From Cercospora beticola (Eukaryota > Ascomycota > Dothideomycetes > Mycosphaerellales > Mycosphaerellaceae): a DNA stretch of 64,000 nt. Below, piece after piece: positions 1,261 to 30,445 of this stretch (position 1 is its first letter; the number at the start of each line of letters is the position of its first letter). The stretch spans positions 3,658,001 to 3,722,000 of the forward strand of contig NC_088937.1 in assembly GCF_033473495.1 (NCBI RefSeq), read 5' to 3'. The position numbers and the translations under genes are program-made. Below the pieces are notes generated by a model. That model did no database searches, had not been told where the DNA came from, and was given only the letters and a program-made list of their open reading frames with translations.

Positions 1261-1454
1261 CATGAGCAGGAATAAGAGCAATTGTCAAGCATGCATTCGA
1301 GATCATGGGCCACATTTGGCGAGGCGTTCTGGAGGACCTGCGAAGCTCATTTCCGAGCTTCAAAAATCGTACCAGCAGCATTGGTGAGGTCCCACCAGGT
1401 GAACTGGGGTATCAGCGAGCACGTGGAATTGATCAAAGGAATTTCTTTATTGTA

Positions 1455-1860
1455 CAGTAGCTAATGAAAAGACCAGTAGGTAGCCCCGTACTCAGTGCAC
1501 AACTTGAGCGCCCTTTGTCTCCTCCCAAAGCAGACACACGCTCGTATTCAAATTTCAAGAACCATCGCTCCTCTCCCATGTTGACCAGCCGGCCAGCTCT
1601 TCTGTCTAGCTTTTTGGTACTGGACCCTGCCCAAATTCCCTCAAATCGTGTTTTGCACAACAGCTAATGCAACTTTCAGTGCGTAGACCCATGCAAAGTG
1701 CGAACTATGAGTGTCCTTTGTCTTGTCCCAAAGCAGACGAACGCTCGTGTGCAAAATCTCAAGAACCATTCTCTCCCTTCCCCAAGTTGTTCAGCCGGTC
1801 GATTATTTCCTTCAGCCTCTTGGTACTGTGGTCTGGCCCAACTTCCCTTCCTTGATCCAT
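1455..1860. repeat. Two-copy tandem direct repeat, 203-bp unit
   Basis: Two adjacent diverged copies, about 1455-1657 and 1658-1860. Matching blocks are offset by a constant 203 bp: an agctaatg start (ATGs at 1464 and 1667), cctttgtct, cccaaagcagac, caagaaccat and ttggtactg. Each copy carries a small open frame starting at its ATG (67 and 62 codons) with related N-terminal peptides. The repeat lies just 3' of the convergent gene ending at 1904. It may be a duplicated 3' UTR or a duplicated short ORF; nothing identifies a product. Confidence 0.6.
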
Positions 1861-1903
1861 TGGTATGCCTCTTCTTTGTTCTCCGTAGCAGTCTCCGCTG
1901 CAC

Positions 1904-3061
1904 TCAAAGACCCATCCGAGTGGCGATCGATTCCATCTCTCCTTCCTGGCCATCTTCTCCGCAAATGCCGAATATTTCCACATCCAACTGAGCTGGCCTC
2001 CCCAGGATGTCGGCAGGAGCCACAGCCAAGTCAGCGTGCATGTCTAGACTCTCTTGATCGCTCGGCATGCTTTCCACCTCGCCTTGCTCATCCAGCAGAG
2101 CGTCGCCCAACCACAAGAAGCTGAAGGCGTCTTCATTGTCGTCCGCTCCTGTCGGCTTCACCTTGGGTGTCTCTGGCTTCGGCGTTCGCTTGATGGCTCC
2201 ACGACTCTCGTCCTTATAGAAGTCTGGAAGGACCGCGATCACACGTCCATCCTCGCTCAAACGGTAACGCGACCTCAGTCTCCGCTGAACTGGCAAGCCT
2301 GTCCGCAATTCCCCATTCTCATCACGGAGATGCTCTCGACGGCTCATGTGGGCTTGGAGTGAACGCAATTCTTCTGGCGGCTCGTCGTGAGGCACCGTGA
2401 TAACCACCGCTGGTGTGTGGTGGTATCTGTTTGGGTGTTCGAGGATCCACATGCGGCTCGCTTCTTCTTCAGACCCGCTATTCTCGTGCAGAAGGCGTCT
2501 GTGTGGGATGGCGATGTTGGCGAAGTCTTCGGCAGCGCGGCGGAGATTGAGGAAACCGGGGCGTGGACGAATTGTGCGCGGTTCTTCTGCATTCGTTGGT
2601 TCCGTGACTCCGTTGCTGTCGGCTTCCAACGCAGTTGTCGTTGTCGTAGTCGCTGGCATGGTCAGGGATGGCGGCATGGAAGCATCGAGCGTGGGACTAC
2701 CGGACTCGAGGGCAGGGCGTGCCATGTTGCATCTCTTGGGTCCGGCGAACCAGGATGTTGGACGTGGTGCGGAAGCGCGTGTCCATGGGCGTGGGCTCGA
2801 CGATGTGGGCGGCGTTGGCGACGACGGCGTAGGGTGCGATGATGTGGTATCCTCCTCCTCCAACTCCATGCCGACAGCCTCCTCCATCTCCACCACCGAC
2901 ACCATATCAAGACCTCCTTTATCCCCTTGCTCCTTCTTGTCGCCGCGAAAGCAGCATGTTATCACCAAGTATACCCCGCTGATCCCCGTCCAGACTACGC
3001 GACCGCAAGCGGTCATATCCATTGTGTTCTTCCTAGCTCCTGCACGACTTCTCGGCGACAT
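1904..3061 (-). CDS. Hypothetical protein with one N-terminal transmembrane segment
   Basis: A 385-residue intronless frame. One hydrophobic stretch at about residues 22-38 could anchor it in a membrane. A low-complexity Pro/Ser/Thr region follows (about 70-150), and then a more ordered, mixed-charge region containing an HHTPAVVITVP segment and an Arg-rich part around 260-285. The C-terminus is acidic. The start at 3061 is the first ATG; a second in-frame ATG lies 13 codons later. I recognise no family and see no catalytic motif. Its 3' end faces the gene at 478-1260, with the 203-bp repeat between them. Confidence 0.5.
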   Translation of the reverse strand: MSPRSRAGARKNTMDMTACGRVVWTGISGVYLVITCCFRGDKKEQGDKGGLDMVSVVEMEEAVGMELEEEDTTSSHPTPSSPTPPTSSSPRPWTRASAPRPTSWFAGPKRCNMARPALESGSPTLDASMPPSLTMPATTTTTTALEADSNGVTEPTNAEEPRTIRPRPGFLNLRRAAEDFANIAIPHRRLLHENSGSEEEASRMWILEHPNRYHHTPAVVITVPHDEPPEELRSLQAHMSRREHLRDENGELRTGLPVQRRLRSRYRLSEDGRVIAVLPDFYKDESRGAIKRTPKPETPKVKPTGADDNEDAFSFLWLGDALLDEQGEVESMPSDQESLDMHADLAVAPADILGRPAQLDVEIFGICGEDGQEGEMESIATRMGL

Positions 3062-6748: not shown

Positions 6749-8299
6749 ATGGCCGCCAATAAACCCAATTCTCTTTCCAACAAGGAGAGCCATTTGGTAG
6801 ACCCGATGCTTTCGGAAACTGAATCTACGAGCTACGACTTCTCCTTCGGCGCCGCTGCCCCAGAGGCGGCGACATACACCAATAGTCGCCCCGTCCTCGA
6901 GCAGCCGGCTGTGCTCCCGCAGCCAGCAAGAACACTCAGCCATACGAAGCCAATATCTGACCATTCTACTTTGCCCAATGCAAGCGCCAACGCTCCCCGA
7001 AAGCGCCGACACAGCCATTTTGAGCAGGAAGGAGGTGTGATCGACGGCACTTCGCACTACAGCAGTGCCGACAAGCGTCACCGTCTCGATTAAATCGGTA
7101 GGCTGCGATCAGTATCATGAGACTGGAAGGAGCATACTGATCTCAAGTCTCAGATTATATTCTTCATCATCAATTGGAAGCCTATACGCAGGTCACTGAG
7201 TTACCCGATACCAACGTTCACACAGCACTGCCCACGTTGCCCACTGCAGGTTCACTGACCTCCACTGTGGAACAGCTCGATCACGCGAGATTCAACGAGC
7301 AATATTCCAATGCAGACAGATTATACCAAGGCATGTGGCAGCGACCAGCACCTGGCTTCGCCAACGACAACCTTCTTGGGACACCGAACACGTTACCATA
7401 CCCGCATGGCTTCTTACAAGGCTACGTTGGCAACCTTTACGCTACCACATCGTCGCGCAGTCTAGCTATAACGCATCAAGCTCCACCACCATTCCGACCT
7501 CTCGCCGCGCCTCGTGTGCCATCGTCCACGACGGCCGGGCTATCCATCGATTTGAGCCACGTCATTCCGATCACTCAGCCTCTGCCTCCAATCGACATGC
7601 CAGTTAACAGCAGCTCAGTTATATTCGTCCGCCGCTCAACACATTAGACGCCGGAAGAGATATTGACCTTCTGGCCAAACTGGTTGACCTCACCTGAGCT
7701 TGCCGTGAGGATGCAACGCAACGGCATGACAGCGAGGATGATCGTTACTGTGCATCTCAGCGCGTCTGGGCAGCTCAACAACGCAGCAATCAACAAGCGC
7801 CTGACTGACAACCTGAAGAAGCAATTCTCGCACGGTGGTCGACATTATTACGATTGTGGAGATCACTGGGACGTGCAAACTGCGAAAGATGATGGCCCAG
7901 ACGACGATATGACTGCGAATAATTGGCACACTCGCGAGGAGCATGTTCTCGCCAATGGTGTTCGCTTGGATGGCAAGGCGCCTCCAAATGGTGCTTGTTG
8001 GAATGGTGATATCTTGTCGGAGCCGACTCAAGAGTGGAAAGATATGCCACTGACTGAGTTCTTTGTGAACGTGCCACGCGGTCATTTTCCAACCGGTCAG
8101 GGCCGGGGAATGGTTACTCGATGTCTGGAAGCTGTGCATGACGATCCAGATTACGCTGTTCTGAACCTCACAACAGCTCATTGGGATTGGCTGAGAGCAC
8201 CTTAAGGAGAACGATCCGTCTGTTGTTCCTGTCCTGCCGCAAGATCCGGCAAAGAATCTGGATCAGGAGTTTGTTGAATGGTTCAAGGCTACGCATTAG
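6749..8299 (+). pseudogene. Broken first member of the tandem NLS/domain family
   Basis: Clearly related to the gene at 9195-10253. Exon 1 (6749-7097) ends in the family's bipartite basic motif (PRKRRHS, then KRHRL) and is followed by a 56-bp intron (7098-7153) in the conserved phase 1. Exon 2 contains the conserved domain (TPEEILTFW, MQRNGM, SHGG, DDDMTANNWHTREEH, FPTGQGRGM, TTAHWDW, KNLDQEF). Three lesions break it: TAA at 7091-7093, two codons before the donor; TAG at 7645-7647, inside the first domain motif; and one extra base near 8191-8197, after which the true C-terminal frame runs to the stop at 8297-8299. With all three it cannot encode the normal product. It shares with its right neighbour a short insert (LDGKAP) that the later members lack. 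Confidence 0.8.
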
Positions 8300-9194
8300 A
8301 TTTGAGCATGATATGCCTGGTTCTGAGAATACTAGTGGCTATCAAGAAAAAGACCGAACGCTCGATGGGCTGTTGGAAGAGGCTGCGTGATGAATGAAAC
8401 TGAGTGTTGGACGCTGATCGAGGGATCAACTGCATAGATATAACGCTGCATTCATGATACCTCAACCTGCGATTTCTTTCCAAAGCTCGACAATCATCGT
8501 GTCAACCACTCTTGTGCAAAGCCTGATCTCCTCATGAAATCAAATGTTCTTGCGTGCTAGTCGTCTTCCTCGAAACCAGATTTTCGATCTCGCTAGTCAC
8601 TTCCTGAATTCTGTAGTCTTTTCTCGATCCCTCACTGTTGAAGGCAAACATTGTAAGCTCTATGTAGTCCTGAACCTCGACGAATCTGACCCAAGACCTT
8701 CCCCTGACATTTTCATCGAGTTTTATTATAGCCCCGTTGTCATATCTATAGCACTTGCACCATTTTCCAGTCTTCTGAAAGCATCTGCAGCTCCTCTCGA
8801 GTCTCTCGAGTCAACGAAAATGACCAACGTGAAGAGTGAAGGCACAGGGCCCCACTGGGGTCGCCCGACGAGCAGCCACCCGTCGCGCTGACCTCATGCC
8901 CACCCTTTGGGCTTGAACAGCGGACTTTGCTTACCGGACATCGCCTTCTGCGTACTACGGAAAATCACCCCGTTACAGTCAACACTGTTGCTCCTCGTCC
9001 TCGTCACAGCCTGCGCGACCAGCGACATCCTTCGACGGCAAATCCCAACCTGTCGCCGTCACCGCTAGGGGAGCCGCGCACTCTCGATCGATCTCAAGTT
9101 GGACAACACTTTGTAAGACCTCTCCATACCACAGATCCTGCAAGCGCTGACAGTCGAACAGATCAACGCATCGTTCGCGACACTGTCCGTCGCG
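8300..9194. other. Intergenic between first two family members
   Basis: Contains catgatacctcaacctgcg at 8453-8471, related to the 3' element of other family members. The 8927-9112 frame followed by a possible 49-bp intron (9113-9161, donor gtaaga, acceptor gaacag) could extend the next gene upstream in phase. An ATG at 8820 might start a leader exon, but I found no convincing join. Confidence 0.35.
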
Positions 9195-10253
9195 ATGGAA
9201 GCAATGGACGCTATGACTATGGAGGAATTCCACGCCTGGGCTGCCGAGATGGATGAATACATCGCGAGCTTCGAAAACGGAAGTGCTTCCCATCACGGCG
9301 CTGTGGCTCCCGGCGGCGAACATGGACCAAGTGTCGCGCAGGAGTCAGAACTCATTGCTGGTCCACATGGAGGCCATTCAGTGCAGGACTCTTACGAACC
9401 GCAAGATTTCCCGCCCAACTTCGATCCCTCTTTCGGCTGGTACTTCAACACCCCGTCCAACTCGCAGCCAATTGCAAGCTCTTCAACAGCTCCGACGCCT
9501 GCGTTGCCCACCACTATGAACTCCCCCTCCGCCTATGGCGCTCCTGTTCCTGGAAATGGGTCGCCTGCAAAGTACACGAGAAGTCAGCTTGTCGTCGAAA
9601 TGCCCCAGTACGTCCGCCCTCCTCGCGGCATCACCATCACCGCAGAGGAGATTCTCACCTTCTGCCCGAGGTGGACTATCTGCCCTGAGGTCGCCCGTCG
9701 CTTCCAAAGCAACGGTATCACAATCGGCATGGCGGTGGACACGCAACTGAAGGCTATCAATCGTCTTGGCAACGTGAATGAGAAGCAGAAAGCAATCAAT
9801 CGGATGAAACAAGATTTCGCCCAGGGAGGTAGACTCTTCTTTAGCTGCCTCAAGTGGAAGAAGCAGATCGCCATCGATCACGGCCAGGACGATGATCTGA
9901 CCGCCAATGATTGGCACACTCGTGACGAGCATGCCATTGCGAACGGCATCGGTCTTGATGGTAAGGCACCCGGTCCGCAGAAGAGCCAGTGGGTGGACAT
10001 CCCGCTCTCAAGATTCTTCACCAACGTGCCTTTAGCCAACTTTCCCACTGGCTGTGGCCGTGGTACCATGACCGTTTGCCTCGAGGCAATCCACCACTAC
10101 CCAGCACACATGCAAGATAAGTTGACGACGGCAGACTGGGGCTGGATAGTCGAGTCTATCAAGCAGTCTGGCAATGGCATCGCTCTTGTGGCTGCACGAC
10201 CCGGCCAGAATCTTGATCAGGACTTCGTGGAACGTTTCAAAGCCTCGAACTAG
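9195..10253 (+). CDS. Tandem family member, short form
   Basis: A 352-residue intronless frame from the ATG at 9195. Residues 1-135 are acidic, then Pro/Ser-rich. Residues about 138-352 are the family domain: VRPPRGITITAEEI, RFQSNGI, FAQGGR, DDDLTANDWHTRDEH, WVDIPLSRFF, FPTGCGRG, TTADWGW and NLDQDF. The consensus GQDRG motif reads GCGRG here. Unlike the longer members it has no bipartite basic motif upstream, unless unrecognised 5' exons exist (a 49-bp intron at 9113-9161 would allow an extension). It is closest to the broken copy on its left. The function is unknown; no enzyme motif or known DNA-binding fold is apparent. Confidence 0.8.
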   Translation: MEAMDAMTMEEFHAWAAEMDEYIASFENGSASHHGAVAPGGEHGPSVAQESELIAGPHGGHSVQDSYEPQDFPPNFDPSFGWYFNTPSNSQPIASSSTAPTPALPTTMNSPSAYGAPVPGNGSPAKYTRSQLVVEMPQYVRPPRGITITAEEILTFCPRWTICPEVARRFQSNGITIGMAVDTQLKAINRLGNVNEKQKAINRMKQDFAQGGRLFFSCLKWKKQIAIDHGQDDDLTANDWHTRDEHAIANGIGLDGKAPGPQKSQWVDIPLSRFFTNVPLANFPTGCGRGTMTVCLEAIHHYPAHMQDKLTTADWGWIVESIKQSGNGIALVAARPGQNLDQDFVERFKASN

Positions 10254-11573
10254 GACTGCGCGTTTGCATGCGTTCGTTGAGGATGGCTCTGCGGATCAGC
10301 AAGGACTGAGCTGCGAGAGACCTACGAAAGGTGTACTGATGAGCGCTCCATATGACGAGGAGGATTTGACCAGCGGAAGGCTCTGAGGAGGGTTGTTTTC
10401 TCAACTTCAGCACGTGCGCTGCGGCCTATGAGGGTCTTTACCGTATTTTGCATGAGCATGGCGTTTTTGATTATTATGGCATTACAGCGAAGATACCCAA
10501 AGGCGCGTGTTTTCAGTAGCAGATGGCGTTTCAACGCAAAGCTTTCAGTTACATCAAAGTTTTCCCTGCCACCATCTTAACATTCTAGACTCTAGATCCG
10601 GCTATGGTCTCTTCATGTCATCCATTGTTCCCATCGTAAGTCCACGCCCAATCCGGCTTGTATCCTTTGACCAGCTCGCGTGCCGTGGACTGGCTGCCTG
10701 TCTTTGTTCGTTGCTTGATTTCCCAGATTGTGAGCTTGCAAAACCATGAAGGCAACTGATGTAGATATTCTTCAGCACATGTAGTAGCGCCTGAATGCTC
10801 CATGCCTTATCAACGACACTCCCATTTTTCCTCAGATATATGCACATTGTCTGATCTATAGACGATTTCCCCGGAATGCGGGCCCAATGTCCTCCGCCTG
10901 GCGACAATGTCGCTTCTGATAGCCGCATCTCCTTGCTTTTGCGGCCCTGCGCCCGATGCTGGCCATAATATTCATGCCGGCTTCTAAGTTGTATGCCCGC
11001 TCGTTTTCTCGCCAGGGAATGGCCAATGATACGAATTCTTACATGACCCGCCCCGGCACGAGAATGAACAATGCCGACATGAAGGAGCGGAACGAATTGT
11101 GTACAAGCCAGAAAGGTATTAGATCTCTTGCTTGCCACTTTCCTCAAAAGTCGCTGCAGCATTCATTCCAAAGGCATGACTTTCAGGTGCATTGAAAGGG
11201 GCTCCAAGATTTTCATGAGCCGCCTTTGCGAGAGATGAGCAGGGTACATACAATGCTGAGGAGTCAACTGCAGCACACGCTTAGATCTGACAATCGAGCA
11301 CGGCGCAATGCCGGAGATGCTGGCGATGGAGAAGGTAGGGCGGCCGCAACAGTGCACGGCCCTCCCGCCGAAACGCTAAGCTCCGTGCATGCCCTCCGAC
11401 TTTCCAGCCAGACACGCACACGGCTGTCAGCAACCATTGCACCTACATTGACGCGCACAGGTGGCCGCTAAAGACAGTGTACTACGAGTGAGAGGCCGAC
11501 AATTCCCGCCGCGTTCCTCAACGGCACCCAAAATCACCGCCAGAACACAAGTTCACGCAACACGGCGCCGAAA
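10254..11573. other. Intergenic, no supported gene
   Basis: The 3' flank of the short family member has a gcatgagcatggcgttttt stretch near 10450, loosely like the family 3' element. A 186-codon minus-strand frame at 10602-11162 has unordered composition and is not called. The last 100 bp before 11574 are the leader of the next member. Confidence 0.35.
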
Positions 11574-13417
11574 ATGTTGCCAAACAGGTCAGACGAGATC
11601 CATACAACAATGAAGCACATACATTTGTTAACATCCCGCAGTACCGCACCGAGCGCACCTGAAGCTCGTCGTGCTCCAGAGCTTGCTCTCCCCTCGGCCT
11701 ACTTTGTGGCTGGTCTCGATTTTGATGACGAGTGGTCGGTCTACCACGACGCGGCGCCAATGGCGGACATGGAGGAACTAGATCACTACCACGACGCTCA
11801 GAGCCCGCCTCTTGGGACATGGAATGGTCAACAAGAGGCGACCGATGCACTCGCGCCACTTAGCGAGGTCCCGCTCGCCGCCAGTCATCCGCCTCCAGAC
11901 TTGTCCCCCCAAACCTCTCCCTCTCCTTTCCCGATTGATCCTGTCCTTCTCGAAGAGGACGCTTCTCCGTTTACCTTTCCACTCTCGGCATCTCCTATGC
12001 CCGCCAACTCCGCTATTGCCTCACCTGCGCGACCAAAGAAGCGCAACGTCGAACCTCTCGACGAGGAAGAGGAACAAAACGAGACGTCACCAGCCACCTT
12101 TGGTCCCTCTCCTAAGCGGCCATGCCTGCAAGGTAAGTAAACATCAAGCTGACTCCTCAATCAGCGCGTGCTAACACTCTTCTAGCAGCTGTTGGTCAGC
12201 AGCATGGTGAACCAGAATATGCTGGAGGCCACAATGGCCCAATCGAAGTGACCCAGCCTCTTCACCCAGTCGATGCTGATACTCAACATGATGAGCCTCT
12301 GAGCAACGCCGAAATGCGAGTCCACAGTGCCAACGAGGCTCCCGTCGACCAGCACCACGATGAACAAGTTCAGCCTACACTCCAGAGCTGCAGCCCTCAA
12401 GCAGCGGCTGAATCTTCTTCACGGGACGTGGCAGAACCCGACACCTCTGAGCAGCAAGAAGAGTCGCAGGCACCCCATCTGTCCACATCGAACGAGTCAC
12501 AGCAGTCTGATGCCCAAATCGATCCCGGTAATGCAGGACCGCCGCTTAGTGCATCTGCCGTGATCACAACTCAGCAAGCATTGCTCCCTACTCCAGTAGG
12601 TGTGCAAAGCGGCGTGTCGACACTTCAAGACCTGGATCCACGCCTGATTCCTACGAACGATTCTCAGCAGGCAAGCGTGATCACTCAGCAAGCCACTGGC
12701 AACTCTTCCAAACCGAAAGGCAAGTCTAAGCAGCCCTCCGTAGGCTCGTCTACCAAGCCTGCGCTCAAATCAAAGCGACGCATCAAGACTTCTGAGGTGC
12801 CTCCCAATGCGAGACCGCCAATGGGAGTGGATATCACGCTCAAGGAGATCTGTGTGTTCGCTCCAACGTGGATCATTCACCCGGCTGTGGCCACGAGGCT
12901 CCAGCGCAATGGGGTGAAGATTGCTGAGGTAGCAGCTGCTCAAGTGGAAGCCATTGGCCGCGCCGGAGAGCCTGCACTTCTGAAGACGGTCAAGAATCGT
13001 CTGAAAAAGGAGTACAATCAAGGTGGGAAGCTCTACACGGGCAGCACTCACTGGAGCATCGACCAGGCTGTGGCTCTCGGCGCTGATAACGATCTGACTG
13101 CAGATCAGTGGAAGTTCCGCGACTTCTACAAGCATCGCAACAAGGAAACCACGAAGGCGCCGACTGAGGAGTGGGAGGACATTCCGCTGACAACCTTCTA
13201 CGAGAACATCCCTGAAGGCAAGTGGCCTACGGGTCAAGATCGTGGAATCCTTACGCGCATGCTTGAGCAGGTGAAAGAGGATGGGCTCACAGATCTCACG
13301 ACCGCACACTGGAACTTGGTCGCCGCCATGCTCGAGAACGAACCACTCCTTCAGTCCAAGATTGCTGGGAAGAATCTCGACGAGGAGGCGGTTCAGGCGT
13401 TTCGCACGAAGAAGTAG
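11574..13417 (+). CDS. Tandem family member, long form with NLS
   Basis: Three exons: 11574-11587 (14 nt), 11642-12132 and 12186-13417, giving 578 residues. Intron 1 (54 bp) is phase 2 and intron 2 (53 bp, branch gctaac) is phase 1, the same positions and phases as in the next two members. Intron 1 is a multiple of three with no stop, so its retention would add 18 residues. Exon 2 ends with a bipartite basic motif split by an acidic run (PKKR, then PKRP, about residues 134-168). The middle part (170-375) is Gln/Ser/Thr-rich. The family domain spans about 376-578: RPPMGVDIT, RLQRNGV, YNQGGK, DNDLTADQWKFRD, WEDIPLTTFY, WPTGQDRG, TTAHWN, KNLDEEA. There is no signal peptide. A nuclear role is inferred from the basic motif; the molecular function is unknown. 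Confidence 0.85.
12181..12190 (+). other. Tandem NAGNAG splice acceptor
   Basis: The second intron of the family member at 11574-13417 ends in tagcag, so splicing can use 12185 or 12188. Both keep the frame and differ by one residue (an extra Ala). Confidence 0.55.
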
Positions 13418-14076
13418 TGATTGACGTTGGAGGAGGCAACATTGTGTCTCAATGCTGCGCGGTCTTGATCAAGCATTTACTGGTAATGGCATGACACGGG
13501 CGAACGCGTTTGGTTTCTGCGAAGCTGGGCTGGTACGCGAGTTCTTAGTGGAGTTTGTTGATTTTGCTTCTTTTTATGATACCCATGAGCGTTTCGGACA
13601 TAGATGACGCATCAATCGGATGCATAGAGGCTGCTACAGACGATGATGCAGTCTACGTTACTAGACAGAAGACTCAATGACGCTGGTCATCTTCAACTCA
13701 TATTGCCTTCTTCTCTAGAAAGAGCGGTGATAGGTCTATCGAAGACGACCAATGCCTTAAATCCAATGCTACGGTACCAGTGTCGCCTGTTACCATACTT
13801 CGCCTTGCAATCGTGACCATTCTTTGCACCTCATTGTCAGTTCCGAATGCGGCTTTTGTTCTTTGTTACCCGAGCTTGTAGCCAAACTCCTTCCTATCCA
13901 TGTTCTTGCTCAAACCGTTGAACTAAATTGCATATTTGTTATAGCAGCACGGCAAACTCATCAAGTTCTCCTTCTGTACATATTGCGGTGTCCAGATCTC
14001 CGTTTCGCTCGCCGAACTAGTCCTCCCAATTATATGCCTGTTATCCTATCTATATAACAGCTCTTTGCAATAAAAT
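13418..14076. other. Intergenic with family 3' element
   Basis: Carries the shared 3' element tatgatacccatgagcgttt at 13575-13594, about 160 bp after the stop. Nothing else was recognised up to the gene fragment that begins near 14077. Confidence 0.45.
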
Positions 14077-14272
14077 CCGCGGTGTGACAACCTGAGTGTT
14101 CGAGTTTGTGGAAGCCAACCAGTTGACGGACACGACCACCGCTGACTGGAATATGCTCTTTGCCAGGCTGCCAAGCGAGTCCGCAATTCAGGCCGTGGAC
14201 CCAACTCAGAACTTGGATGAAGAAACAATGATAGCGTTTGAGGCCCTTTCACAACGAGCTCCACCATGGTAG
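14077..14272 (+). pseudogene. Decayed 3' fragment of a further family member
   Basis: The frame reads RGVTT, a stop, then VFEFVEANQLT, DTTTADWN, LPSES and QNLDEE, ending at TAG 14270-14272. This matches the last 65 or so residues of the family domain, especially the gene at 14703-16649 (RGVMTRVFEY, GLTDKTTAHWD, LPSEP, LNLDQEA). The stop stands where the relatives have Arg, consistent with CGA to TGA. All upstream coding sequence is missing. The 3' flank (14285-14335, ctggccataactctgatac then gcgtcagaggctt) resembles the flank downstream of 16649, so this is a tandem-duplication remnant, not a chance match. Confidence 0.8.
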
Positions 14273-14702
14273 ATAAAATCAGGTATTTTCTGGCCATAAC
14301 TCTGATACAGTGTCAATGTCTGCGTCAGAGGCTTTAACCTTGCTCCGCGATTGCCATGGCCGACTTTTACGCGTGCAGAGGAGAATGCACAGGGCATTGC
14401 AATGACGTTCAGAAGACTGCGGGCGGCTCAGGCGGCGGGAGCCTGCGTGATGTTGGAAGTGTTGTTCGAGGCAGACGGGGTCCAAATTCGGCTTCGGCCC
14501 CCAGCCCCCAAGATTTCCGCCAGCTGCTCTCCACCGCGACCTTTCTCGTAGACACACGAACTTTAACCACCGCGCTGATCACAGCGATCAAGCTCGCCAA
14601 TTTCAACCGCCGTATCTGCACCCGAATAAGGAGTCGCGTACTGCGAGACAGCTCTGGCGCACTTCGTCGGCAAAATCGTACATGAAGGCCACTGAGTGCG
14701 AC
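14273..14702. other. Intergenic / leader of next family member
   Basis: The first 60 bp resemble the 3' flank of the 14703-16649 gene. An in-frame ATG at 14682 could add seven residues to that gene. Open frames at 14351-14685 show no family resemblance. Confidence 0.35.
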
Positions 14703-16649
14703 ATGGCGCCAAACATGTCGCCCAAGAGGTGATTACTGGCCAGTGGTGACCGCGAAGCATTCATACACTTACAGTCTTGCCACAGCACGCCGTCATGTGC
14801 GCCTACCTCGCCAGAGGCTCAAAACATAGAGAGCGCGTTCGCCGACTACAACGTCGCTCCAGCCCCGTACTACAGCCTTGGAGCTGTCGCCGTAACCAAG
14901 ACACCATCAGAGGCTGCGTGTAACAGTCCAATGTCGTCCAATGTGGACTCGCTGCTGCAGGATGTGCACGCCATCTCGTCGCCGCCGAATGTACCACATG
15001 CTGAAGCCGTATTCACTCGTGGCGCATCTCCGCAGCATCACCTCAATTCGCCACCCGCGCAGTCCAATGCCTCCACCACCTCCAAGGCGAATCCGAGGAA
15101 GCGTGGTGCCGTGGAAGAGGATGATGGCAGCAACGATCTGCAGTCTGCTACTGGTGCAATTTCTCCCAAGCGCCAACGCCTGGCAGGTACGTGAAAACCC
15201 GTCAGACTGCTTTTCTCTTCAGCTTTTACTGACACCAATGATGTAGACTCAATTCGACAAGGGGGTTTCTTTGACATCAGTGGGATCGAGATGTACTCAG
15301 GGCACGTCTTCCTTTCGTCTAGTCCTGCACACGGTGATACGCAACACGATTGGGAATACGACGACGTCAACATCACGCCTGAAGAACTGGGCTTCACGGC
15401 TGCTACTGGCTTTCACCAAGGATCTGTCTCAGCGCCAGTGAGCTACGATGACACTGCAGCATATCCTCTGGCTCAATCGCTCAGCGATGGCTTGTTCGGC
15501 TCCACTGCTGGGCAAACGGGTCCGCCTTTCGACTCGTCTGCACCGTTTGAGTTGGGCACGATTGCAGCTTGGGACAACTCTGTCGACACCGAGCGTCAGA
15601 TCGATGCTGCTCTCATCGATGATCAATCACCCGAGTCATCACAACCACCCAGTACCCTCAATCAGAGCTCCACGCCTAAGCAAACAGGTCAGTCATCGCA
15701 TTTGGCTACACACTACGAGCTAGGACCAGTTGGACCAGGAGATCATTCTGCGTTTTCAGGACAGCAGATTGATCTTGCTGAGCAGCAGGTGCCTGTCGTT
15801 AGCTCAGTCGCCGCGGTGAGCAACTTGACCCAGCCAAACACGACGCTTCACGCAGGCTCGTCCCATGCAAGCTCGTCTCAAGTAGGCCATCAATCGCAGG
15901 CGAGCGTCACCACTCAAGCTTCCAGTCAAGCTGGCTCCAATCTCAGCAGCACAGGCGCGCAGACTGCCACCGGAGCAACCACCCAGGCTGCACCTCGTCG
16001 CAGCAGACGCGTGAAGACAACCGACGTGCCATTCAACGCGAGGCCTCCAATGGGTCACACTATCACCGCGAAGGAGATTGCGTGTTTTGCAACGAAGTGG
16101 CTTACGCTGCCGGGTCCTGTGATGCGTTTTCAGCGCAACGGGATCAAGAGTGTCATGCCAGCTACCATGCACCTGGAGGCCATCAATCAGAGTGCAAACC
16201 AGGCACTGCTGAAGACCCATAAAAACCGGGTCAAGCAAGAATTTACCCAGGGAGGCCGTCTTGCTACGAATCGCAGCAGCTGGGACGTGGACAGCGCGGT
16301 GGCACTTGGACCCGACAACGACCTCACTGCAAACCAGTGGCGTTTCAGAGATTTCCACAAGCACCACAATGACCCACAAAATGCCAAGCAGCCAAAAGAT
16401 GCCTGGGTTGACATTCCATTAACCACCTTCTACGCGCACATCCCACGTGCCAACTGGCCAACGGGTCAAGACCGCGGCGTGATGACTCGCGTCTTCGAGT
16501 ATGTGGTCGCCAATGGCTTGACGGACAAGACGACTGCTCACTGGGACGAGCTTATTGCCAACCTACCGAGCGAGCCTCTGCTTAAGGCGCAAGACGACAC
16601 CCTGAACCTGGACCAGGAAGCGGCAGAAGCGTCCAGAACTCGTACATGA
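14703..16649 (+). CDS. Tandem family member, long form with NLS
   Basis: Exons 14703-14728, 14786-15186 and 15247-16649 give 609 residues. The tiny first exon (MAPNMSPK plus part of Ser) parallels MLPN-Ser in the preceding long member and joins in phase 2. Intron 2 (60 bp) is phase 1. Exon 2 ends in a bipartite basic motif (PRKRGAVEEDD, then PKRQRLAG, residues about 110-142). Residues 160-400 are Ser/Gln/Thr-rich and probably disordered. The domain spans about 405-609: RPPMGHTIT, RFQRNGI, FTQGGR, DNDLTANQWRFRD, WVDIPLTTFY, WPTGQDRG, TTAHWD, LNLDQEA. The start could be 14682. The function is unknown; a nuclear location is inferred. Confidence 0.85.
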
Positions 16650-18248
16650 TTTGCTGCATCGTGGTTTGTGATAAGACGTTGCTTTGGCCTGGCCATGGCT
16701 CTGACACATTGCGATTGACTGCGTCAAGAGCTTCCATCTGCACAAATATCTGAGTACGCAACGCTCAGAATGGAGATGCGAGGTATCGGTCGATTACGAA
16801 GGGGTTTAATATCTTGTTATTTACGCATTGAGCTTTTACATCACTTCAAGACACCTCAGACCTTGGTGGCCTCCAGCCTCGGCACATCAGCAGGCTCATC
16901 GCTCGTTGGGAGGCGGACATGGACCTGCTACCAGATCAGCATCTGCTCTGGTCAAAAATCGACAGCATGATTCTGAAAAGGCAGGCAATAACTGGACTGT
17001 GGCGGCTTTCGACGCAACTGGATGTGTTTCATTTCTGCAATGCCGACAGTAGCGGTGCTGAGCATATTACCCAGAAGACGTAAAGGTATGGGCTCAATGA
17101 ATTCGAGCGAATGGTGTGCATGAGCGCGGGTTGATTTTGCGAGCGTTCCTGACTTCACGATACCCATTGAGCGTTTTATGTACGGTTTTAGTTTCATCGC
17201 TTCTTCTCAAAATGCTGTAGACTAGGCATTCTAGCAACAGGCTGATTGAACAACCAGAGTTGCTGAAAATTCCTCTTTGAGCTTGCACCGCGAATTTCTT
17301 GAAAGTCATCTTCGAAAGAGGCAAAAGTAACAGCCTGGGCATCACCATAGCCTCTCATTGCTATGCGTTTGCTACCACGCTGCTCAACGATGCCCCAGGG
17401 CGATTGTTGCAAGAACAATAGTGTTCTTCCATATGATTTGCTTTCCAGTCATATCTGTCCTTGCCTTGATGCAGATTCCCAATGCGTCCATACTTCTTTG
17501 TCATGCTGGTCTGTAGGTCAACCACTCTGTGACCTTTTTCGTTGCTCCCTTCGCCAAAGCAAACCACGGACCTGCCAAAAAAGCACGACAAGCCCAAGCA
17601 GATTTCCCTCTACATCCATCATTCGGCTCAAATCATCGCGCCTCGCCCGTAGCACCTCTTCCTGTCCACTATATGCCCCTTTTCCATACTATAGATGAAT
17701 CCCTCCCAGCACAGCTACGCCGGTGCAACGTCTCCCCTCAGCGCACTACCGAGACGATCATCCGTGATTTTGCTGATATATTTTGAATCCATGCCCACCA
17801 TCATGTTCTGCATCAGCCAGCGCTCTGCATGCATCTCGAGAAAGAGCTTCACTGCCGCCCATTGAGCCAGGGGTAACGAAACCACCCAAGTCCTGAACAA
17901 GATGCCGCCCACCATTGCGACCGATGAAGTCGAATTGGGTGAATGATGTGCAGGCGATGAGCAGCTCTTGGCTCGCACTCTCATATTTGACTCGACGTGA
18001 AAATGGAAGATCTGGTGTTGCGTGGCGCAGCCCGTGCAGAGGTCGCGATGGCTGGCGGACCCACTCCTGTCGAGACGCGTCTGTTCTGCCCGCCCTCTCC
18101 ACCAGAACTTGAACTGCGACCATAACATTGCTTACACGGCAGACCGACTCTGTCAGCGCCTGTAGGTCTTACCGCAATCGTTTTCAAGCAGCCGCCCAGG
18201 CGAGCATCTCCAGCACCCCTTCGCAACGTGCTTTCCCAAGATTTCACC
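16650..18248. other. Long intergenic with family 3' element
   Basis: The element cgatacccattgagcgtttt lies at about 17158-17177, some 510 bp after the stop. No gene was recognised in either strand; the longest frames (137 codons, minus, 17715-18128) have no ordered composition. Confidence 0.4.
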
Positions 18249-20103
18249 ATGTCGAAACTCGGCGGCACCGCTGCCCCCGTCCCTCCAACCTCGCGGTCAG
18301 TATCATCTCACAGCCTTGAATAAGCGACCTGCTTGTGCTGACGTCTTAAAGTGTGACCGCTGCGCCTCCCGTTTCACCCCCATCACCTCGCCCGGCATCG
18401 CCGCCGACGGAACTTGGTGTCAACAATTTCACTGAGAACCTGTCGGCATACACCACCACGCTTGAAAGCTACCCGGCCACGATGGAAGCGCCATCAGTAA
18501 GCTCCTGGATGGAGAGGCCTGCGCCGAGCCAGACCAACAGCGGAGCTGAAGCGCCAAGTCATCAAGCTTATGCACCAGAAGACGCTGCGTCTGCTCAGCT
18601 TCTGCTTGATGCGATTGCCCCGCCTTCTCGTGCTTCTGTCGCGCCGTGTTCAAGCAAAGGCAAGCGCAAGGCAGTTGTCCAGGATGACGAAGAAGAATTT
18701 CTTGATCCGGCCCTGAGAAAATCAGGCAAGCGAGCTCGTCTTGATGGTGAGGATCGCCTTCCACTGAAATTCCCAGATATGATGCTAACGCCTCCACTCA
18801 AGCTCCCTCTCGCCAGCGCGAAGCGTTTCCTCCATTCGATGACGTCGAAGGAGACGAATTTGTTGTCTCCAGCGCCTGGTCCTCGAAAGACTTGAAAGAC
18901 TGGCCACCTGCCCACGCTTGGCCACTTTCCATTGCTTTTCCAGACTATCAGTACAACACACAGATTCCCCGTGATGAGTCTGTCACCAAATCCGGATTCG
19001 TGAACGTCAACACCAATCTGAAGCACGTCTTTCAGGGTTCAGACTACAAGATCTTCGAGCCTGTCCCTCAAGCGTTCGAACATGCTCACGCGACATACAA
19101 CACGGGTTATCACCACACAGTGGAGGCGCCCGGCAGCACTGCTGGCAGTGAGATGGCGCTGCAACATCCAGGAGACCAGTCTGCCACCACTTACGGTTTT
19201 GCTGGTCCTTTCACTGCACCTGATCCGCAGTATACGCCAGACTTCAACAACGGAGATGCTCAGACAGGTGTAAGCCGTTTGCAGCATCAGGCCACTGGAT
19301 ACCCAACCTTTCTCCAGTGGCAGCCACCGATGACGGCGAGCACCCAGGCTACCGTCAACCAACAGCTGAATGCTCCCGGCAGTCGGAAGAAAGCTCGGAA
19401 GGCTCCAAACACTGCAACTGGCCGCGTCTCAAAAGCCCGAATGAACACAACTCGCCTCAACGAGGATGCGCGCCCGCCCATGGGGGTTGATATAACGGCC
19501 AAGGAGATTGCTGTCTTCAACCAGAAGTGGATGGTGTCACCGGACTTGGCTAGGCGGTTTCAGCGAAACGGCATCACTGGGCCCATGATGAGCACGGCTC
19601 ATTTGGAAGCCATTGGCCGAGCCAACGACGCGAAGGACCAAACGACGCTCAAGAATAAGATAAAGAAGGAATACTCACAAGGTGGCATGTATGCGCTGAA
19701 GTGCAAGAAGTGGAAAGTCTCAAAGGCAACTGACCTTGGTCCTGAGAACGTTCTCACTGCGAATGGGTGGAAGTTCCGTGACTATTACCGTCACCGAAAC
19801 GGAGACACGAAGGACGCACCCAAGCAAGGCTGGAATGATTATCCACTCAGCTTGTTCTACTCGCACATTCCGACCGACAAGTGGCCGACTGGCCAGGATC
19901 GTGGGATCATGACGCGAGTGTTCGAATTCTGCAAGAAACACGGGCGTACAGAAGCCACGACGGCTGACTGGAACGCCATCATCGAAGAGATGCCAGCTGA
20001 GCCGAAGGTTGTGCCACTCAATCGTTCGAAGAACCTTGATCAAGAGGCGGCAGAGGCTTTTTCCAGCCGCAAACAGACAGCAAGCTCACAAGACGATTCT
20101 TGA
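18249..20103 (+). CDS. Tandem family member, long form with NLS
   Basis: Exons 18249-18295, 18352-18746 and 18803-20103 give 580 residues. Intron 1 (56 bp, donor gtcagt) is phase 2 and intron 2 (56 bp, branch gctaac, acceptor ctcaag) is phase 1, as in the two preceding long members. Exon 2 ends in the bipartite basic motif (KGKRKAVVQDDEEE, then GKRARLDG, residues about 118-147). A second basic cluster (SRKKARKA) precedes the domain. The domain covers about 370-575: RPPMGVDIT, RFQRNGI, YSQGGM, ENVLTANGWKFRD, WNDYPLSLFY, WPTGQDRG, TTADWN, KNLDQEAAEAF. The Asp of the DLTA motif is Val here. There is no signal peptide and no known catalytic motif. Confidence 0.85.
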
Positions 20104-21512
20104 TCGCCTCTGGCCTGCAATCACTGCTTGCGCCGAGCGTGACAACCGAAAATTCGACTTCTTCACTCTCGTTGCATTTCGACACTCCACGATCAACTGA
20201 TGGCACAACGACCATAAGACCTATGCAGCCGCAGTCCGGCCACCCGAGCTCATCGCCTTGCTACCCAACAGGCCTGACCGTAGCCCAAGCGCAATGCTCA
20301 ACGTTTGGAAGCATTGACGCTCACTGGATGGCCGTCTGGGTCTGGCAGGGTTCCAAACGCACACGAACAGTTTTCTTCGTCTCTTTGATCTCTGCAGCAG
20401 CAACAACATCTGCGCTATGCACTGTACCCAGCTGTTTCGACCTTGCATGGTCGTTCAACCGGAGACTGGGGCGCTTTGGGAGGATTTTACGATGTTTTCT
20501 TGCTTTTATGATACCCTTTGAGCGTTTTCAGCATCAAAAGCGTTGCTATCATTCGCAATGACTTCAAAATAGGTCTCGTAGCAAAGCTACCAGTATGTTA
20601 ATCATCGAACGAACTGAGATTCTCGAAGCTGCCACTCTCTTCTTGCGCTATCGCCCGATGCTCGTGTCCATGCTATCAGTTGTTTGTCCATGACTCGTCC
20701 TGAAGATATTTGTCTGCTTGTTTTTCTCAATGAACAAAGCTTTGCCTAGTACAGATCCATCGGCTTCTACAAGCTTCAATTGGCAAATTGTCTGTGTTCG
20801 TCCTTTAACAAGTCTATAGGAATCAACGAACAAGCACAAACGTAGAGCAACTCATTTCCTTCAAGCCAAGCTGGCAAACACGTCTGGAGCTCTGAGACCA
20901 TATATCAATGGCATGCGTCGCTCTGTCTCAGCTCTCCATTCAATCTCATCAACACAGCAACTGTGCTGTCTCACATCCTTTCTCTTTCATAAGCATGGCC
21001 ATATACACTTTCGATACTAGCGATACTACTTCCTTTCCCTCTCCAATATCCACCGCAGAGACTCCTACACAGCCTCCCTCTGCTGCGGCCCGGCCCCGGC
21101 ATCACAAGCAAATTCGTCATGAGCTCTCCATGTGATTCGGTAAGTCCGAAACCTTCTTGGGTGAATGTAAAAGCCTTGGCATTCATCCCTTACCCGCACA
21201 CGGACCATAAAAGCCCACCAAATCTTTCCCTGCTGCTCTTCTTCTTCTTCCCACACACACACATCCACGCACACTTGGCCAGATCAGAACACTTCCTCGA
21301 TCGACAACACTTCCTTCGACACACTCGTCTGCCAACCAAGCTCTAACACTGTCGCGTGCTAGCCTTCTGCTTCAGCCGGCACAAATACTCCCGCTTCACA
21401 AACATGTAAGTACCTTCTCGAGTTCGTTCATCAACACTCGACCTCGACCTAACACTCGACCTCGACAGATACATCAGCACACCCTCCTTTTCCCTCTCGT
21501 TCATTCGCAAGA
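20104..21512. other. Intergenic with family 3' element and pyrimidine-rich leader
   Basis: The element tatgataccctttgagcgtt lies at 20507-20526. From 21200 the sequence becomes pyrimidine-rich (cttcttcttc, acacacacac), then has a strong donor gtaagt at 21405 and an acceptor cgcaag just before the ATG at 21513, a probable 5' UTR intron of the next gene. A 19-bp direct duplication (ctcgacctcgac core) sits at about 21435-21470. Confidence 0.45.
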
Positions 21513-22202
21513 ATGAACCCAACAGACAGCGGCGTGCCAAAAGGCGCTTCCCTGCCACCGGCCGGTATTCCGGTCGGTATTCTCGAGTTACTCTGCTTTT
21601 ACCCCAATCACTTCCAAGTGATTGAGTTGGCGCAGCGAGCGTCTCGAGAGGGTTGGTCGCCACCAATGATGGCGAGAGTGCAGCTTTGGTCAAGAGATGG
21701 CAACTTTTCGGCCATCCATGGCCGTCGCAACGACACGCTGCGGCAGCAATTTTCAGCGGCGTTCAGTGCTCAAGGGTAAGTTATTCTATTGTCGTACTGC
21801 GAGATGTTCAAGGCTAATCGTATCCCTTACAGCACCACCATGACGGCCTACAAGGCCTCTGCAGCTGGCCGACCGTTCGATCAAACCGACGGTCCAACAT
21901 TCACCCAGCTGTACGAAGTCAGCAACGTCACGCTGGGTAGCCATGCCTCCGGCCCACCGTCCCTGCACCAGCTTACAAATGGTGTTGTCAACTTTCCGGC
22001 CGGCCAGGACGCTGGGGTGCTGACGCAGGCACTACAATGGGCACAAGCACGGGGCAACGCGGTGCTCTCGACGATGACCACCGACGACCTACCGACGATC
22101 ATCGCAGCACAGGGCTTCACCAACCCTGCTGACGCCTCAACACCCGATTGGGACAAGAGGGCTCTTGCTCGGGCTCTTTTGAACGTCCCTCCGCCGCAGT
22201 GA
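21513..22202 (+). CDS. Short divergent member of the tandem family
   Basis: Exons 21513-21775 and 21833-22202 give 210 residues. The 57-bp intron (gtaagt, branch gctaat, acceptor ttacag) joins in phase 2. The protein consists almost only of the family domain, in divergent form: PPAGIPVGILELLCFYPN matches RPPxGxxITxxEIxxF; LRQQFSAAFSAQG matches the KxxxxQGG segment; NFPAGQDAGVLTQAL matches WPTGQDRGxxTR; and TMTTDDLPTIIA matches TTADWNxII. It lacks the basic NLS motif and the disordered N-terminal region. It is either a truncated diverged copy or close to an ancestral single-domain form. The splice signals are canonical and no lesion is seen. Confidence 0.75.
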
Positions 22203-22469: not shown

Positions 22470-24900
22470 CATTTTCTACAGTTTTTTGCCAAGAAGAACT
22501 GCAAGCATAGCCGCTGAGTCTCAGCCTTTCTAGAAGAGCCTGCCTTCCGACGCTCCTTTATTTGCAGATCCACGGCGATGCTGGATCAAGATGTTCCTAG
22601 AGAGAAGGTTTTCAAGTATTGGACATAGTGATTCTCCAAATAATTTTTGCCATATTCCAACGGTTTCTGCTAGTCTTTCTGGAAGCACTCCTTGTTGTAA
22701 GCTCCTGGATATATAAACTGACAGCGATGAGGACTAAAGAGGTCGTTGGAGACAACATATCTGGGCGTTGGACATAGTAATTTTGGACTGAAATTTCGCA
22801 GTTCTCCAACGATTCTTGCTGGTGTTTCCAGAAGCATTCCTCGTTGTGTGCTTATGGATCTCCAGATCCTCAGCGATGGGAATCAGATTTATCAATGAAG
22901 AGAAGATGTCTAAGCGTTGGACATAGCGATTTCCGAATTAATAGTGCCGGTTTTTATAATCACCGTTCATCCTTCTCCGTAGGGACTCTTCGTTGTACGG
23001 TCTCGGATCTCCAGATACGAAGCGATAGGGACTAGAGTTGCTGCGGGAGTGAGGATTTGCAAGGGTTGAACATAGCCATTTTCGAATGGATTTTGCCGGC
23101 TTGAAACGATTTTCGCCGGCCTCTCTAGATTGATCAAGCATTATACGCCCCTGGATCTGGACAATCCCGGCGATCCGGACTATAGCGGGATCCGGAAAGC
23201 GGATATCTAAGCAGTAGACATAGCGATCTCTGACCAAATCTCGCCGTTTCCGAAATATTTTCCACGGTCTCTCTGGAAGGACTCTTTGTTGCAAGCTCCT
23301 AAATCTGCAGATGCGCGGCGAAATAGACTAAAAGTATAGACGGAGGAAATTGTTCTAAGTAGTTGACATAACGGAATTCGAATTCATCTTGCTATTTTAG
23401 AGTGGACTTCGGTGGTCTCTCTAGGAGAATTGACTGGTGTAAGCTGCTAGATCTGCATATACAAGGCAGTGCGAAGCAAAGGATTGGTGGAGATTAAGGG
23501 TTCCTAAGCGTTTGACATAGCGATTTTCGAATGGATTTCGTCGTTTTCGAACCATTTTTACTGGCGTCTCTAGCAAAACCTGCTGTTCCATGCTCCAAGA
23601 TATATAGATGCAAGCCGATCTGAACTAGAGACGCAATTAGAGTTAAGAGATTCTTGAGCGTTGAACATGGCAATCCTGAATGAATTTTGCCGGTTTCGAA
23701 CGCTTTAACCTGATCTCTCTGACGTTTCCTTGCCGTTGCATGCTCCGAAATATCAGAACCTAAAGCGATACGTACTCAGAGTGTGACTGGAGACAGGATG
23801 TCGACCGTTAGACATAGGAATTTTCGAATAAATACCGCTAGTTTCCATCGACTCTCACCAGGAGCTCTGAAGCAATTTCGTTGTTGCACGTTCCTAATAT
23901 TCCAAATATGTAGCGATGCAGATCAAACATCTGTCCAGAGAAACCGTCATCGAGCGTTGGACATAGCGGTTTTCTAATGAATTTTGCTGTCTTCGAACGA
24001 TCAAAACTGGTCTCTCTATTAAAGCATGTCGTTCAATGCTCGCAACGCTTCAAACTTGTTGCGATCGGACCGAACGTGCATTCGGGGCACGACGCTTCGA
24101 GCGTCAGACTTAGTATTTCTCAAGCAATGTTGAGCGAAAATTTCTGGCCCCTCTAGAGGCATACCTTGTTGAATGCTCATCTATGTACAGATGCGTAGCG
24201 ATGCTGAGCCACAGTTCCCTTAGAGAAAGCTTTCTGGGAGTTGGGCATGGTCGTTTCGAACTGGAAATGATCTACTACTGTAGCTATTATTACGCAGAAC
24301 AGCTCCTACCAATTGTACGAACACGAAGACCCAAAACAAAGCAGTGGTCGTAAGCGAACATGAAGCAATAAGCCAGCCTGTTCGGCAAATCGTAATAACA
24401 GAGAGGGTACGGTTCATGAGAATCATGGATCGGCGTGTTCCATCTCTGCTCGTCGATCGCTTATGTTTTCAGAACCAGGCAGCGCTTGTGAGCAAGCAGA
24501 AAGTCACATGCAAGCCTGCTTAGCGTGTTGGGCATAGCAGAAAGTGCAAGCGTTCTGGCCATATATGATCGGCAGTGTTTGAAACAGACTTGTCTTTGTT
24601 CGTCAGCCTTCTGTGTTCTCAAATCAATGCAGCGCTTGCAAGGAAACATATAGCAACGAGCCAACCTGCTCAGCGATATGGGGGCAACAGAAAGCGTAGG
24701 ACACCTGGCAATGAAAACTCGGCAGTATCCACAAGTGTACAGTCTCTGCTCGTCCATCTCTTATGCTCTCAACACAAGACAGCGCTTGCAAGCGACTAGG
24801 AAGCGGCATGCCAGCCTGCTCAAAGACCCAGGAATATCAGAAAGCCTGCAGCTCCTAAGATCGAAGATCGAGACGCAGTGAATTGAATCGACGGCCAGAC
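22470..24900. repeat. Degenerate satellite array, ~148-bp unit, ~16 copies
   Basis: A landmark gttggacatag-type block recurs at 22622, 22770, 22920, 23069, 23217, 23365, 23514, 23664, 23811, 23960, 24107 and 24244, and in altered form near 24385, 24531, 24681 and 24829. Most spacings are 147-150 bp. Other blocks repeat in register: tttcgaatgaatttt, gccggtttcgaacg, ggtctctctag, ttgttg and ctcctggatct. From about 24290 a second subfamily appears with its own blocks (cagcgcttgcaag at 24480, 24630 and 24780; cagcctgctcag; cagaaag) in the same 150-bp register. Units are perhaps 50-65% identical (estimated by eye). The unit is not a multiple of three and has stops in all frames, so it is not coding. 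Confidence 0.85.
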
Positions 24901-25941
24901 GATAAGTGATCGTCGGTACCGAATGTCATTTCGAATGAATGACTCATGCCTCCGACGTTTTAGGCCGTACAATGCCGTTCGAGATCCATTTCCTGGGTCG
25001 ACTAAGCTATAACATTTGTCAGAGCATAGCGCATCAGTCATCGATGCTCTAATCCTCTGTTCCTCATTTTCTACGTGGCCTTCTCTATTGTTTTTCGAAC
25101 CATACCATCAAAACTGTGTTCAGATTCAGAAGCAGGCCTCCCATTGTAGCTTATGATAGGACAATATCGTGAATCAAGAAGCATTTTGACTCTCAGGTGC
25201 CGCGCGATTGTCTTGTGAAAATGTGGCTGGCGAGAAGGAGAACTTCAACATATGATCGCTCTCCTGGCCCAAAAGTATGGTCCCTTCTAGGCTGAAGATA
25301 AGCTATTAGTCCTCCAAGCAAGACCTCTGCTATCTACTGCATTGCTACTTCCTGCATTCGATTTCAATGCATGCCTATAAGTATTACTTTTGCTTTCCTT
25401 GTTGACCGTAAATTAGTAGGAGCTACTAGAATGTGAGCCCCACGCTACAAAAAGTAGTGTTCACTCGTTCTTCTGTGAGTGTGCGAAATATTAGTTCGCC
25501 GCTAGAAATGATCTGCAGTTCCATACATATGAGAAGCCTGCGAGGCACCAGATACACAGCCTTCTCAAATGGCTGCTGGTAAACATGTAGAAGGAGGTTG
25601 ATATGAAGCAGAGATTGAGCACAAAGATCAATCGTAACGACCAGCAAGATTAGCCTCTACACCTGAATCCTTCGAAATGCCACTGCGCGACCAACCGCTT
25701 ACATGCTGCCCTCTCTTGGACAATCCATCCTGCTCCATCTTGAGATATCAGTCTGCAGTGACTTACTCACTTCATCAATACACCATTGGGTCCATCAAGA
25801 CTCCAAGACTAGTCTGTGCCCTAGATGAGCTTCCACGTCAAGTAGTGTAAGGCGACCCCCAATTTCCGTTGCACTCACCGTGATTCTACGTGCCCTGTCC
25901 GTTCCAAACTTTGCATAAGGATTATTCCATCTTCGTCCGAC
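24901..25941. other. Gene-poor, AT-richer spacer
   Basis: No gene, RNA gene or clear repeat recognised. Only short open frames (75 codons or fewer). Confidence 0.4.
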
Positions 25942-29700: not shown

Positions 29701-30445
29701 GGTTGTTGACGTAGATTAGCCCGAGACGCGCTTGGTCGCGACCGCTCTGTCTCGCCCTCGACACGCGTGGGGATTTTGCTCCGACGCGAACTGTTGCAGA
29801 TGGTGAGGTGAGATCAGTGCTGCGATGCTGCCTGTCTGTGAGTTTTTGTCGCGTGCGCCGTCGGATGGGTGAAAATCAGCACTCGTGCGCAAGTCGCCAT
29901 CCCCGCTCGTGTGTGCTTTTGGTCGCGTCGCCTCGTGATCTGCCTCATCATCAAGCGAGCTCGCGACAAAAGAAAAGGTGTGCTCGAGCGACCGATCCAC
30001 TTCGATCTCACGCATACAGTAACTAGCCTCTTCCTCTCCTGATAAGCCCGTCTGTCATTCTCGACTGTCATCCCGGCGTGTTCTGCAAAAGGCGAGTGCC
30101 AATGCCGATGTTCGTCGCTCCTCGCTGCAGGGACAGGCGGCGATGGCGGCTTCGAGAACTCGTCTAGAATAAGTCCCACGCCGGCTGCTGCATCGTCCAG
30201 AGCCATTGTTTTCGTCGTGCAAAACGGGCAAGAGTGCTCGTGCTCATGCCGGGAAAGTCGTCCATGTTCATGCACGCGAAAGGGTCAACTCGGTGCTTTC
30301 GCTGAAGTCATCGTTGCCATTCCGTTGTCGCACAGTGCCACTTCAGCCTCTACGCTGCACCTCACGCTTCACCGACTGTCGTGCCGGCAGACAAATACAT
30401 GTACCTCCCATGCTCCCACGATAACAGCCCAACACGTCCCTTGCT
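29701..30445. promoter_or_regulatory. Divergent promoter region
   Basis: A 745-bp region between the start codons of the minus-strand Whi5-like gene and the plus-strand mitochondrial kinase. A 153-codon minus frame (29814-30275) in it is probably not a separate gene. No TATA box or known operator is obvious. Confidence 0.4.

Follow-up and report, generated by a model that had tools for sequence, protein, structure and literature searches.

The closest described relatives of the genes considered here are the deposited fungal proteins P0001 to P0012 (locus tags CB0940_03640, RHO25_005438, CKM354_000023400/23500/23700/23800, CBER1_05040-05042, CERZMDRAFT_102099, BST61_g1111 and Slin14017_G116440), all of which are named uncharacterized or hypothetical and carry no Pfam domain. 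They belong to the same family as a tandem array in Cercospora beticola, which occupies positions 6749 to 22202 of a 64,000-nucleotide stretch of contig NC_088937.1 (the window, in the following) and consists of seven copies, A to G, on the same strand; P0001 and P0005 are the products of array copies C and E. A literature search, with supplementary files outside its scope, retrieved no publication on the array and none under the exact gene names.

Three protein searches, which scored 7999, 367 and 4653 candidates (in the first search those with the most words in common with the query), together returned 13 related proteins. Eleven come from five Cercospora species (two from C. beticola, four from C. 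kikuchii, three from C. berteroae and one each from C. zeae-maydis and C. zeina), one from Septoria linicola and one from a further source, in keeping with an earlier description of the family as seemingly lineage-specific. The third search missed the known Septoria member, and all three were used; because these searches were limited, the true range of the family may be wider. What is established is a gene family with introns, of considerable age, with a constrained domain, a fast-changing acidic N-terminal half rich in Ser, Pro, Gln and Thr, and a unique 3' element. We tentatively favor, as the most likely reading, an old and narrowly distributed fungal family of nuclear regulators that combine an acidic tail with a helical binding module.

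Results

The genome searched comprises 36,074,111 bases on 10 contigs, with the array on contig C3. When it was queried with the domain of copy C, the domain of about 205 residues that the array copies have in common, seven matches were obtained, all on this contig and within the array: the query itself, copy E (55% identity, E = 1e-73), copy F (48%, 5e-64), copy B (39%, 7e-35), two pieces of copy A (7e-15 and 2e-14) and fragment D (5e-6). P0003, P0012, P0008 and the domain of copy B led to places confined to copies A to F. Copy G is too diverged for the search with the C domain; it is linked to the family by profile-profile comparison of the C/E/F/B alignment with the G alignment (hhalign, probability 94.0%, 161 columns, E = 1.5e-7, a value that holds for this one comparison). 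These results confirm the seven same-strand copies of the preliminary description, as well as its division into five intact copies, one broken copy and one 3' fragment: the domain can be read without interruption in B, C, E, F and G, whereas A is the broken copy and D the 3' fragment.

All copies are read from the plus strand. Copy C (exons 11574-11587, 11642-12132 and 12186-13417; 578 amino acids, domain at about 12779-13414) yields after splicing a protein that is identical in every letter to P0001 (RHO25_005438), and copy E (exons 14703-14728, 14786-15186 and 15247-16649; 609 amino acids, domain at about 16005-16646) is matched in the same way by P0005 (CB0940_03640). The two identities mark the window as DNA of C. 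beticola or of a source nearly identical to it. Both are real genes, and the proposed models needed correction, since each gene has two introns, the first of them after a very short first exon. At the end of intron 2 of copy C (12133-12188) are two AG sites with a spacing of 3 bases, the first of which is used in the deposited C. beticola protein; P0002 of C. kikuchii is one residue shorter at this site. Copy F (18482-20103, domain at about 19435-20100) has a candidate start ATG at 18482, which is one option, and its intron at 18747-18802 is the likeliest among four frame-compatible acceptor choices; its orthologue in C. kikuchii is P0006. Copy G (exons 21513-21775 and 21833-22202; 210 amino acids) is essentially the domain only, with an intron inside it, and has orthologues in three Cercospora species (P0009, 92%; P0010 and P0011, 63% each). 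Copy B (9117-10253) is an open frame of 378 amino acids with a provisional 5' end and a first in-frame ATG near 9196, and it has no deposited orthologue among the 13 proteins recovered by the protein searches. Copy A (6749-8299) contains internal stops and frame changes. It falls into an ATG-led piece with a basic motif (6749-7093), a domain piece (7648-8205) and a C-terminal remnant in another frame; its pieces match C, B and P0008, and its nearest relative is B (46% identity; tree support 92/86). Copy D (14075-14272), the 3' fragment of a further member, has 43% identity over query residues 154-209 (E = 5e-6) and one internal stop.

The copies are old. For the five open copies, the synonymous distance (dS) is infinite in seven of the ten pairs and lies between 1.7 and 2.5 in the other three, for which the ratio of nonsynonymous to synonymous distance is 0.27, 0.43 and 0.58, rough values at saturated synonymous sites. 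Third codon positions are the most different in all ten domain pairs (0.33, 0.28 and 0.61 for the three positions between C and E) and the same holds for the open piece of A against copy B (0.37, 0.29 and 0.70 over 173 codons). Judged by these substitution patterns, the domain looks to be under purifying selection. In the phylogenetic tree, the C type (3 rows, support 95/97), the E type (3 rows, 100/99), copy F together with its C. kikuchii counterpart (99/97), a second F type (100/97) and the G type (4 rows, 100/100) each form a group that spans several species; therefore, the duplications preceded the split of those species. Long branches lead to B, A and the Septoria protein, and support is weak (86/31) for the fork that unites array copy G with C. 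kikuchii. The locus tags in C. kikuchii (CKM354_000023400 for G, 23500 for F, 23700 for E and 23800 for C) and in C. berteroae (CBER1_05040 for C, 05041 for E and 05042 for the second F type) suggest that both species possess the array, in the same order. The array is thus ancient and has suffered losses; a recent local expansion is not supported, given the saturated dS values and the multispecies C, E, F and G groups.

The broken state of A and D would also fit an array of functionless relics. We regard this as highly improbable, in view of the five copies with open frames, the codon-position pattern in ten of ten domain pairs and the orthologues in other species. Decay by repeat-induced point mutation (RIP) was rejected as well, as both RIP indices are ordinary for the window: TpA/ApT is 0.37-0.65 in copies A to G versus 0.54 in the window, and the second index is 1.20-1.40 versus 1.36.

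Conservation is uneven along the proteins. Copy C and its C. kikuchii counterpart share 191 of 211 residues in the domain (91%) and 219 of 311 in the N-terminal part (70%), and the figures for copy E and C. berteroae are 193 of 212 (91%) and 278 of 390 (71%). P0003 of C. berteroae carries a C-type domain (85% like C) behind an N-terminus that is only 29% like that of C and of which no part has a match at another place in the genome of C. beticola; the C-terminus of P0007, the E copy of C. kikuchii, departs from the family. Tails that evolve faster than domains, the mixed make-up of P0003, the aberrant end of P0007, the broken copy A and the fragment D would fit a birth-and-death array of nuclear proteins that serve in genetic conflict or chromatin packaging, and not in gene regulation. 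This explanation seems unlikely to us, however, as orthologues of C, E, F and G persist across species and the domains of C and E are conserved to about 91% between species.

The domain itself belongs to no known family that sequence comparison could reveal. With hmmscan, neither 8 pieces, nor 10 alignment members, nor 6 proteins gave a credible Pfam family (best E = 0.19); in NCBIfam, the 6 proteins gave a single match of 16.3 bits, where the cut-off is 310; and the best hit of a sequence search of the PDB had an E of only 0.32. A known domain is ruled out at this level, and the preliminary description's failure to place the domain is borne out, with no well-characterised family emerging from the Pfam and NCBIfam profiles. 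The motifs that had been listed for the domain follow one another as stated in B, C, E and F, of which B and F show substitutions; G retains them in part (PPxG, E, R, PxGxDxGxxT and TT) and is without QRNG, QGG and DLTAxxW. The fold predicted for the C domain is all-helical, at moderate confidence and with no clear known match, and the predicted helix order is the same for copy C and one G-type protein, in agreement with the profile link between them. The helices, a K-rich helix, then W and LTAxxW-like stretches and then a TG motif are reminiscent of Myb_DNA-bind_3 (PF12776), a resemblance that we took as a lead only and for which the profile gave no support: a search of the C. beticola genome with PF12776 returned no match in the array at E values up to 10, and hmmscan returned none either. 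The one weak match of that search (21.7 bits, cut-off 23.6) lies in an unrelated frame on contig C5. An internal repeat within the domain was also rejected, as the hhalign score between its N-terminal and C-terminal halves (9.8) was reached by 91 of 200 column-shuffled controls.

The long members have an N-terminus of the disordered type and, within it, a basic motif of two clusters, both as had been described. P, Q, S and T make up 39% of the N-terminal part in both C and E, with net charges of -32 (C) and -21 (E). Two basic clusters with an acidic linker between them were seen in all ten N-termini examined, that of Septoria included; the linker has 14-24 residues and a charge of -2 to -7, and the second cluster reads K[KR]x[RC]. 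In 2000 shuffles of each of six proteins, the pattern recurred 0 to 2 times, a control that is flattered by the definition of the pattern after the sequences had been viewed. In C, E and F, an intron donor site directly follows the basic-acidic-basic motif, a splice site common to the long members. The motif is missing from P0006 and P0013, which are short deposited models, and by eye from B and G.

A classical bipartite nuclear import signal has a linker of 10-12 residues. The two clusters are present here, and the linkers exceed that norm, so that we can only infer a nuclear location. The length and acidity of the linkers, together with the existence of G, essentially a bare domain without the basic motif, would agree with a role elsewhere in the fungal cell, for instance as a scaffold, in which case the motif would not be an import signal. 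We consider such a role rather unlikely; that the motif is common to ten of ten long N-termini, including the one from Septoria, argues against it. Secretion and action in the plant is the least probable reading of all. The name under which the proteins are deposited is that of a plant pathogen, and unknown protein families of plant-pathogenic fungi are often tested for action in the plant. However, none of the four long members P0001, P0005, P0008 and P0012 has a hydrophobic start (the highest nine-residue mean within the first 35 residues is 0.12-1.61), by a crude hydropathy test that is not equivalent to a signal-peptide predictor. G-type proteins reach 1.8-2.6 in the same test, but within a helix of the conserved domain. 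The reading as nuclear regulators remains the preferred one, as it agrees best with the tail, the basic motif and the helical domain.

Copies C, E and F are followed by a short 3' element, which consists of GATACCC, 1 or 2 bases and TGAGCGTTT. It lies at 13578-13594 after C (GATACCCATGAGCGTTT, 161 nucleotides past the stop codon), at 17159-17176 after E (GATACCCATTGAGCGTTT) and at 20510-20527 after F (GATACCCTTTGAGCGTTT). The pattern has exactly three matches in the 36 Mb genome, all of them on the plus strand after these three copies, versus 0 for the reversed pattern as a control. A related pattern with one mismatch permitted recovers the elements of E and F only, as it does not permit the gap in C. 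Copies A, B, D and G had no site nearby in a scan of the window with up to 4 mismatches. Between the 900-base 3' flanks, C and F are 84% identical over 37 bases (E = 4e-5) and E and F 95% over 19 bases (E = 5e-4); the best match between C and E has an E of only 0.28, and outside the element the flanks have no credible similarity. Because the silent sites of the genes are saturated, the element is probably maintained by selection. It may act in RNA or at the 3' end; at gathering scores, Rfam recognizes no RNA family in the window, the element included.

The array is not the only locus of the family. P0010 as query retrieved a G-like half on contig C1 (residues 94-210, 44% identity, E = 2.8e-24). 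This piece, which resembles the C-terminal half of G, lies inside a 331-residue open frame (locus L024, positions 1441-2436, minus strand). The other part of the frame has matches to fragments on contig C9, and the whole could be either a chimeric gene or a relic. A second match of P0010, on contig C5 (E = 0.13), falls in a frame that resembles a histone deacetylase by eye and was treated as chance. Fragment D, the mixed make-up of P0003 and the G-like half on contig C1 hint at the instability by recombination that had been suggested for the array. A G-like half within another frame could also point to a domesticated mobile-element protein that spread by duplication. We deem this improbable: the family matches no Pfam transposon family, the copies found amount to one array and one half copy, introns are retained, and the RIP indices equal those of the window overall.

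The surroundings of the array are ordinary, with adjacent frames that match a dehydrogenase kinase, GH114, GST, acetyl-CoA hydrolase, tyrosinase and other common families. Beside the array, a frame at 28147-29715 on the minus strand contains a Whi5-like motif (PF08528, E = 1.6e-10, above the cut-off). Just 3' of copy G, at 22607-24093 (perhaps from about 22400), about ten units that recur with a strict period of 148-149 bases form a degenerate tandem repeat. Its units have a mean pairwise identity of 55% versus 34-38% in five shuffled controls; it is not listed by Tandem Repeats Finder and has no second match in the genome. One nucleosome core contains DNA of nearly this length. Farther on, at 24401-25000, local self-similarity peaks at 150 bases (0.45 versus a mean of 0.26, in one 600-base step).

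Discussion

Together, our data suggest a model in which the long members are nuclear regulators. The basic motif would carry the protein into the nucleus, where the helical C-terminal domain and the basic stretch that precedes it would bind DNA, chromatin or a protein partner, and the acidic tail would recruit other factors. Their private 3' element would place copies C, E and F under common regulation, either post-transcriptionally or at the 3' end of each. Copy G would represent the family without its tail and might act as a partner or modulator.

A more ambitious version of this model is possible, if on balance doubtful. It holds that Cercospora and its near relatives have a new nuclear domain, which is all-helical, that the array consists of old, diverged paralogues including the tail-less G, and that C, E and F are jointly controlled by the private 3' element, so that a self-contained regulatory set would have arisen within one fungal family. 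If this is true, a domain that is absent from the family libraries has long been kept in one group of plant-infecting fungi, the genome-unique 3' signal of three genes is a ready-made cis-element, and the array offers a clean test of how genes of narrow distribution acquire lasting roles. As it stands, the array is a sound and modestly interesting orphan family, and even if it is plainly that, the domain can still be named and added to the family libraries.

Tandem arrays of lineage-restricted genes are a familiar kind of locus in filamentous fungi, and the array described here shares with them the same-strand paralogues, the broken copies and the narrow range. Unlike such arrays in general, it is made up of very old copies, three of which have a private 3' element.

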